This document shows positions 111-1,606 of a stretch of 22,858 bases of DNA, piece by piece. The notes beneath the pieces are model-generated. The model had not been told where the DNA came from. It saw nothing but the letters and a program-made list of their open reading frames with translations, and did not search any database. Source of the DNA: a virus; the IMG/VR virus record IMGVR_UViG_3300031825_000368, positions 1-22,858 of that record; one strand, given 5' to 3'. Every line of letters begins with the position of its first letter. Within the stretch, counting starts at the first letter, position 1. The position numbers and the translations under genes are program-made.

Positions 111-300
111 CGTAACGGCTCACTACCGGCGGCCGGACCGGCGATGCAGGCCCCTCCGGCGCACAGACCGATCCGGCCGAACCCCAAGGATCCCACGCAG
201 TCCCGCGAAGTGGAGCTCGCGGAGAAAGAAGAGCCCCGCCGGGGACTCTCGTCCACGCCGGCGGGGCTCCCGGCCGCCGGCAGGGGGGATGCGGCGGCCG
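111..300 (+). ncRNA. Structured RNA-like module, copy 1 (three hairpins)
   Basis: The module starts with CGTAACGGCTC (111-121). Hairpin 1 pairs CGGCCGG (130-136) with CCGGCCG (173-179). Hairpin 2 pairs GAGCCCCGCCGG (231-242) with CCGGCGGGGCTC (258-269), a perfect 12-bp stem with an inner GGAC/GTCC (243-254). Hairpin 3 pairs CGGCCGCCG (271-279) with CGGCGGCCG (292-300) around the 12-nt loop GCAGGGGGGATG. A near copy of that loop recurs at 315-325, between CCGCC (304-308) and GGCGG (329-333). Copy 2 at 673-863 keeps the same elements at nearly the same spacing. Function unknown; no U-tract terminator follows. Confidence 0.5.
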
Positions 301-394
301 ATACCGCCCGAATACAGGGGGATGCACAGGCGGCAACCCGGAACTTTACTTCATCTTTGAACCAGGCTGAAGCCCGCCCACAGTGTCCCTCCGT

Positions 395-448
395 CGGTGC
401 GGCCGGTGGAGGCGCCGACCGCACCGCCAGTGACGCCCGCGGCGTCAC
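395..448 (+). other. Pair of adjacent perfect hairpins
   Basis: CGGTGCGG (395-402) pairs with CCGCACCG (419-426), enclosing a 16-nt loop that contains GGTGGAGG. Immediately after it, GTGACGCC (430-437) pairs with GGCGTCAC (441-448) across a 3-nt loop. The arrangement of a hairpin with a purine-rich loop beside a second strong hairpin resembles the neighbouring array units, but the sequence is not a clear copy of them. Confidence 0.4.
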
Positions 449-499
449 ACGGATCCCCGCCGTCCAAACTCCACAGCCGGGCGGGCGCACAACGTCGGG

Positions 500-609
500 G
501 TTACGCACTGCCGAAGGTGAAGAAGCGAGGAGCCGAACGCGATGTCCAGCCCTCCCCGGCAGTCCACCACGCTTCGGCGAGATGAAGGTATCGACAAACC
601 GGGCGTAAC
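500..609 (+). other. Long-range helix enclosing two mutually exclusive helices
   Basis: GTTACGC (500-506) can pair with GCGTAAC (603-609). Inside it, ACTGCCG (507-513) can pair with CGGCAGT (557-563), or the overlapping GCCGAAG (510-516) can pair with CTTCGGC (572-578). The last two cannot form together. Competing helices of this kind are typical of switching RNAs, but no ligand or regulated gene is evident, and in GC-rich DNA some 7-bp pairings arise by chance. Confidence 0.3.
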
Positions 610-672
610 GCCAACAGGTTGCTGACCGCTCGTATCACACGACGCGTGCTGCGTGCGCCTTCGGGGCCCTCC

Positions 673-863
673 CGTAACGGCTCGCAATTGGCGGCCGGCT
701 CGCACTGCGCAGCCCCCTGCGAGGCACAGTCCGAACCGGCCGGTCTCCAGCCTTCCACGCCCACCCGGGATGAGGACGGTATCGGACAGAAAACCCCGCC
801 GGAGAGAGAGTGGGGGCAACTCCGGCGGGGCCTCGGTCACCGTGCAGGGGGAGTGACGGTGAC
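673..863 (+). ncRNA. Structured RNA-like module, copy 2
   Basis: CGTAACGGCTC (673-683) is identical to copy 1. Hairpin 1 again pairs CGGCCGG (692-698) with CCGGCCG (736-742). Hairpin 2 pairs CCCCGCCGGA (794-803) with TCCGGCGGGG (821-830). Hairpin 3 pairs GTCACCGT (836-843) with ACGGTGAC (856-863) around the 12-nt loop GCAGGGGGAGTG. The hairpin 3 stem differs from copy 1 on both sides, yet pairing and the loop are kept. ACGGTATCG occurs on both sides of hairpins 2-3 (about 776 and 871). Confidence 0.5.
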
Positions 864-934
864 AAGACCAACGGTATCGAAGGCCGGGCGACCTCGTGGG
901 AAATCGGCTCACGAACCCCGCTCGAATAGGTGAA

Positions 935-1005
935 GCCCCGCCGGTGATCTCTGTGACGATCCGTCCGGCGGGGCCTGGCCGCCGGACGGGGGAGAACGGC
1001 GACCA
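935..1005 (+). ncRNA. Structured RNA-like unit 3 (two hairpins)
   Basis: GCCCCGCCGG (935-944) pairs with CCGGCGGGGC (965-974). Directly after it, TGGCCGCCG (976-984) pairs with CGGCGACCA (997-1005), with one C-A mismatch, around the 12-nt loop GACGGGGGAGAA. It lacks hairpin 1 of the full module. It is followed by TCAACTCTA (1009-1017), repeated after unit 4. Confidence 0.45.
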
Positions 1006-1222
1006 AGATCAACTCTAGGCGGGCAGCAGCCGGCGTGCAGACCTCCCGTCAGCACCGGCTCACGATGGGCTGGCTGTACGAGTTCATGCGGATCATGGTG
1101 AACGGCATGGCGTGCATGAGCGGGCTGATCCCAGACATGCCGCAACCGCGAAATGTGGGGGGTGCAGCCCTTCAGGGAGGACGAGTCCACGCACGCTCGG
1201 CGGCAGGCCTCGACACGGGAGA

Positions 1223-1280
1223 GCCTCGCCGTACTGCGCGTCGCGGCGAGGCCCAGCCGCCGAACGAAGGGAGAGGCGGC
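1223..1280 (+). ncRNA. Structured RNA-like unit 4 (two hairpins, divergent)
   Basis: GCCTCGCCG (1223-1231) pairs with CGGCGAGGC (1244-1252). Then GCCGCC (1256-1261) pairs with GGCGGC (1275-1280) around a 13-nt purine-rich loop, GAACGAAGGGAGA. TCAACTCTA follows at 1286-1294, as after unit 3. This is the most divergent of the four units, with a shorter second stem. Confidence 0.38.
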
Positions 1281-1606
1281 CGAGGTCAACTCTATGCGCG
1301 CGAGGCGCGAACCTGCAGCGCCCCGAGATCACTCATCCGCGACATCTACCGAAGCGCCGCGAGCTGCTTCTTGACTCACGAGGCCCCTGTCAGGGGACGC
1401 CCTCGATACCTCCGGACGTTGAATGCGTGCCCGCGCACGGGCCATTGCAAGAGCTCTGGCCGTCGGCCTCATCCGGGTGGGGTCCGACCTGCGAAGACTG
1501 CTCGGAATTAACCGGAACCGCGGCGGAGGTGGTAGAAAAGCAACAGCCGGGGCGCACATGCTGGGTAGCGAAGCACGCCCCGACTGTCACATCAGGAGAA
1601 GGTCAA

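Follow-up and report, generated by a model that had tools for sequence, protein, structure and literature searches.

A tandem array of putative 6C-like small RNA genes on Rhodococcus mobile elements

Introduction

The mycobacterial small RNA (sRNA) B11/6C represses translation via C-rich loops that pair with ribosome-binding sites (PMC10470900), and extra copies of 6C have been reported on mycobacterial plasmids (PMC9569102). Other RNAs that invite comparison with the locus described here are the proteobacterial sX13 (RF02232) and anti-hemB (RF02837), and the phage-borne GOLLD and ROOL. A literature search found no tandem 6C-like sRNA family on Rhodococcus phages or plasmids, and to our knowledge none has been described.

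The DNA that we analyzed, referred to as the window, is an entire 22.9-kb IMG/VR record from an actinobacterial tailed phage or prophage, closely related in DNA to phages of Gordonia and Rhodococcus. It opens with the end of a protein (1-102) that, by its position and final residues, fits the SGNH hydrolase at the counterpart site of ReqiPine5, and later genes include the head-tail adaptor (3515), tape measure (6271) and endolysin (19287). Between the SGNH gene and the head-tail adaptor gene lies an array of four related hairpin units, U1 to U4, which, as we read their signals, run against the phage late operon on the other strand. Two more strong hairpins with T-rich ends, at 2309-2342 (z -4.5) and 2531-2565 (z -6.3), are typical terminators around cargo genes. 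A short frame between U3 and U4 (1070-1160; MGWLYEFMRIMVNGMACMSGLIPDMPQPRN), which shows few differences in the related record G006, could be a small protein gene.

Results

A sequence-only reading had been unable to match the array to any of the large structured RNAs known from phages, and no Rfam family attains its gathering score in the window; the best weak matches (6C, anti-hemB, Scr3202 and sX13) are on the minus strand throughout. Of known RNAs, the units come closest to 6C (RF01066), which they resemble in having two consecutive hairpins, with a C-run in the first loop and a GC-rich second hairpin, and the 6C model aligns to minus-strand U1 (window 226-301) over positions 1-75 of 75, both helices included. 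They differ from 6C in score (23.1 bits for the window U1 and 25.5 in the related record G007, against a gathering score of 47), in that U2 and U3 are not recovered by the 6C model, and in being tandem paralogues with differing loops and a linked complementary hairpin, which we call H1'. None of 17 records held a 6C match over the cut-off, and a control from C. glutamicum, a known 6C carrier, was likewise below it. Given the low score and the shared layout, the units are 6C-like and not assignable as 6C members; as far as sequence can tell, they form a new family on Rhodococcus mobile elements that resembles actinobacterial 6C/B11. The sX13 and anti-hemB models match weakly over U2 on the minus strand, with a C-rich-loop and terminator layout common to both, but these matches fall far under the cut-off and come from other phyla, a matter of analogy rather than homology. 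GOLLD and ROOL are, like the array, noncoding and phage-borne. The proposal that the array is one large ornate RNA of that kind is not supported: there is no Rfam match to either, and the promoter boxes, T-tails and wobble pairs described below point to several short, separate genes.

The hairpin 2/hairpin 3 pairs on which that reading was built (231-300, 794-863, 935-1005 and 1223-1280) are all present, with their stems and loops. On the plus strand these pairs, U1 to U4, fold with z = -4.1, -2.4, -2.4 and -1.3 against dinucleotide shuffles. In an alignment of 22 homologous units, 98.0% of helix cells are paired (shuffled mean 94.7%), and 20 cells carry two-sided changes that keep the pair, against 4.9 in shuffles; none of 500 shuffles was as high on either count. 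Shifting the partner column by 1-3 positions destroys the pairing in this alignment. The covariation among homologues thus exceeds every shuffle, and the claim that paired stem changes reflect a selected RNA structure is supported. By inspection, the frames that are conserved prove to be broken or shifted from one relative to another, in keeping with the earlier view that the region holds no credible protein gene, and we rejected a coding role for the array on that ground. A start codon or Shine-Dalgarno sequence within loop 3 on the plus strand was also rejected on inspection, its frame not being conserved, and tRNA-like elements were considered and rejected.

The assumption of plus-strand transcription fared less well, since -10 boxes, T-tails and G-U wobbles all favor the minus strand. 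We gathered 30 units, found in Rhodococcus prophage records, on one phage-plasmid and on a number of plasmids. In 23 of the 25 common-type (non-U1) units, a gap of 5-7 nt separates an upstream TANNNT box from the base of hairpin 3' (hairpin 3 read on the minus strand); this is the start-site spacing of a sigma-A-type promoter. Within the 50 nt upstream of the 30 units, TANNNT is confined to two places, -5 to -7 (in 23 units) and -40 to -42 (in the U1 type); the chance of such placement is ~0.03 per unit. Positions 1, 2 and 6 are invariant and positions 3-5 vary (TACCGT, TAGAGT, TAGGGT, TAGGCT, TAAACT, TAAGGT, TAGAAT, TAGGAT), and this variation of the middle of the box across diverged units points to selection on a -10 element rather than to plain sequence identity. 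When upstream regions are clustered at 75% identity, 12 groups have the box and two common-type groups do not. The units without it are G007_U3, whose upstream region resembles a recombination junction, and G007b0. Several plasmid units, though not all, have by eye a CTCACG-like -35 sequence 17-18 nt upstream; there is no recognizable conservation of a -35 element. On the plus strand, none of the 30 units has TANNNT before hairpin 2, and no promoter was seen by eye before hairpin 1.

Termination signals and base pairing point the same way. The 10 nt after hairpin 2 contain on average 4.9 T residues on the minus strand and 1.8 on the plus strand, against a background of 2.4, and hairpin 2, alone among the unit hairpins and on the minus strand only, has the GC-rich stem and T-rich tail of an intrinsic terminator. 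Non-Watson-Crick cells in the 22-unit alignment, read on the minus strand, are mostly G-U with fewer A-C, while some changes in hairpin 1 remain paired only through plus-strand wobbles. Minus-strand folds trimmed to the inferred transcripts reach z = -5.2 (U1), -5.6 (U2), -5.0 (U3) and -2.1 (U4). The G-rich loop remarked on earlier is correct as a description of the plus strand but misleading as to the RNA, the loop being C-rich on the favored strand. Given the -10 box, the C-loop hairpin and the minus-only T-tail, each unit looks like a 70-115-nt sRNA gene, and the array is best read as four separate short minus-strand sRNA genes, each with a putative promoter and terminator of its own.

All of the following features are on the minus strand. 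The predicted U1 gene (222..336, its start inferred from the -10 box) has two C-loop hairpins followed by a terminator hairpin. Its TAAAGT box (343..348), 40-42 nt upstream of hairpin 3' and just before the extra C-loop hairpin, is conserved in all five U1-type units. The extra hairpin, H4' (303..334, loop CAUCCCCCUG), has a CCCCC loop in U1-type units, with inner stem variation compatible with pairing, and is followed by hairpin 3' (270..300, loop CAUCCCCCCUGC) and by terminator hairpin 2' with its tail CTCTTCTTTCTC (220..269). U2 (783..864) consists of a C-loop hairpin (836-863) and a terminator hairpin (792-833) with CCCCC in its loop too, plus the tail TTTTCTG; its box, TACCGT, is at 871..876, 6 nt from hairpin 3'. 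U3 (925..1005) combines hairpin 3' (976-1005, loop UUCUCCCCCGUC) with a terminator hairpin (935-973) and a TAGAGT box (1012..1017), and U4 (1213..1282) likewise combines hairpin 3' (1254-1282, loop UCUCCCUUCGUUC) with a terminator hairpin (1223-1252) and a TAGAGT box (1289..1294). C-runs thus occupy both terminal loops in U2-type and most plasmid units and the first loop only in U3 and U4; in U1 they occupy both upstream hairpins, and the terminator loop has none.

A covariance model of the family, R1, scores the window units on the minus strand at 83 (U2), 69 (U3), 57 (U1, 220-299) and 43 bits (U4), against a maximum of 38 bits on 84 decoy contigs picked for a look-alike GC hairpin, these being the yield of a GC-hairpin scan of viral contigs and mostly unrelated hairpins. 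The unit G008_U2, held out of R1, reaches 69.9 bits, and its box, TAGGAT, is at -6. Two other candidate RNAs came to light alongside the family. The R. aetherivorans plasmid pN2 carries a separate 6C-like RNA (NZ_CP106983.1 109279-109355; L233:100-176; 38.3 bits against 47 with the 6C model) with the second loop ACCCCCUGC, like the array units. A provirus record (L074:955-1031) has a C-loop hairpin and a terminator with a T-tail, is otherwise unlinked to the array family (R1 37.9 bits), and is possibly another phage-borne C-loop sRNA.

Relatives in IMG/VR were found by pattern and protein searches. One record, 96% identical, keeps U1-U4 in unchanged order (G006); others carry U1-U3 plus a second array elsewhere (G007), U3, U2 and U1 (G008), U2 and U3 (G009), U1 (G005), or a diverged array (G004). 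The plasmid collection yielded the array again, with all four units, on Rhodococcus sp. DMF-1 plas-2, which we take to be a phage-plasmid because terminase, capsid and lysin genes are present. Single units occur on plasmids of R. ruber, R. aetherivorans, R. sp. WB1, R. rhodochrous and R. pyridinivorans, and on pYYL1.1 one unit is duplicated and adjoins an IS element. The annotated carriers are Rhodococcus in every case, and the annotated phage collection contained no homologue of the array. A weak model match on pGD02.2.1 (36 bits), lacking a -10 box, was left out, and two matches from a single pattern scan of species-representative genomes (a Lentisphaerae MAG and a Clostridia MAG) were taken as chance.

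The upstream hairpin 1 (131-178 and 693-742) is real and is conserved for U1, U2 and most plasmid units. Its minus-strand counterpart, H1', lies ~55 nt beyond the terminator in U1/U2-type and most plasmid units and is preceded by a conserved box, GTGnGAnnCT. In most H1'-bearing units the H1' loop, GCAGGGGG, is perfectly complementary to the sRNA loop, CCCCCUGC. Of 19 units, 15 retain at least the pairing of CCCUGC with GCAGGG, and the complementary stretch averages 7.4 nt, compared with 3.7 nt when the loops are shuffled. In the window, H1' of U2 (693..742) has a G-rich loop, CUCGCAGGGGGCU, with 8 nt complementary to the U2 sRNA loop. The loop of H1' of U1 (131..178), GCCGGAGGGGCC, is no longer fully complementary, and the match is retained in the 96%-identical relative. 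U3 and U4 are usually without H1', an exception being G007b, a U3-type unit with H1', and their loops lack UGC.

We scanned the DMF-1 phage-plasmid for targets and found one candidate, a 10-nt match of the U4 loop to the Shine-Dalgarno/start site of a gene for an HTH protein within the immunity region. Since 11% of shuffles equal it (P ~0.11, not significant), we regard this match as a lead only. Genes adjoining the arrays include the PADLOC candidate defence genes PDC-M32A/B (G005) and PDC-M41B/M30A (G007), as well as SocA-PemK, Fic and a kinase; that these are candidate defence or toxin-antitoxin genes (L173:12530-14075; L176:10636-12582; L183:7608-8900; L187:2829-3680; L188:4864-6264) indicates that the arrays sit in an accessory-gene hotspot. 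Directly beyond the unit on pWB1 (L190:4419-4830), an ORF resembles, by eye, an ANTAR-domain protein. Separately, CGTAACGCATCCCGCG-like repeats (L009:349-1819; L180, minus strand) are often found just 3' of stop codons, with six copies of CGTAACG in one orientation against ~1.2 expected; they are perhaps a phage regulator-binding or start-associated repeat.

Discussion

We consider it quite probable that the array comprises four tandem, paralogous, 6C/B11-like sRNA genes on the minus strand whose products would block ribosome-binding sites. Conservation, covariation, a promoter and terminator pattern and loop complementarity are properties of the DNA itself, and from them we infer transcription, which would proceed in the order U4, U3, U2, U1, each gene using its own sigma-A-type -10 box. 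Each RNA would start at or near the base of its C-rich-loop hairpin (in U1, the first of two such hairpins) and end at the intrinsic terminator. Most likely, the exposed CCCCC loops would then base-pair to Shine-Dalgarno regions rich in G and keep ribosomes from loading, so that, by analogy with B11/6C, the array sRNAs should repress translation at such sites. The loop variants CCCCCUGC, CUCCCCCGUC and CUCCCUUCGUUC may give the RNAs distinct target sets. In U1/U2-type and plasmid units, H1', with its 8-nt complementary G-rich loop, probably serves as a linked decoy that captures the sRNA, or folds against it as an intramolecular kissing contact in read-through transcripts.

The same hairpins could also belong to one large structured plus-strand RNA of 190 nt to 1.2 kb, in which the C-rich loop of hairpin 1 kisses the G-rich loop of hairpin 3. 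Hairpin 1, the linker, hairpin 2 and hairpin 3 are conserved as a set in both plasmid and prophage units, the loops are complementary over 8 nt, and on pWB1 the loop pairing survives only on the plus strand, as G-U. We nonetheless find such an RNA improbable: hairpin 1 is missing from U3 and U4, the plus strand has no TANNNT upstream of hairpin 2, T-tails and most wobbles favor the minus strand, and the minus-strand -10 box at its fixed distance would go unexplained. Still less credence attaches to the view that the units are transcription terminators only, GC-rich hairpins in tandem that shield the late operon from cargo genes. Hairpin 2 is indeed strong and, on the minus strand, has a T-rich tail, and such hairpins are common between phage genes, but hairpin 3 covaries and keeps its CCCCC loop, and even in diverged copies from plasmids and phages its distance to a -10 box stays fixed. 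A terminator-only account is inadequate because it leaves both the conserved C-loop hairpin and the box unexplained. Least credible, and very improbable, is a DNA-level element (a hairpin for recombination, transfer or protein binding) that marks the edge of an accessory-gene hotspot. Although units flank variable cargo on several elements and the pYYL1.1 duplication lies beside an IS element, the promoter-terminator arrangement and wobble-tolerant pairing indicate RNA and no recombinase is consistently linked.

The four-sRNA-gene reading has a bolder extension, which we offer tentatively and hold to be rather unlikely: that phages and plasmids of Rhodococcus harbor self-contained modules of an sRNA and its decoy. 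In each, a 6C-like sRNA would be linked to a hairpin with an exactly complementary loop; the modules, duplicated and with loops diverging in phages, would serve to commandeer or rival the host's 6C regulon and to control either lysogeny or the defence genes linked to them.

Overall, this locus teaches that covarying hairpin arrays should be read on both strands. We know of few sRNAs in Rhodococcus. If transcribed, the array units would be sRNAs open to experiment, with naturally varying loops and a complementary hairpin linked to them, and would suggest that the regulatory logic of C-loops in actinobacteria is put to use by mobile elements.
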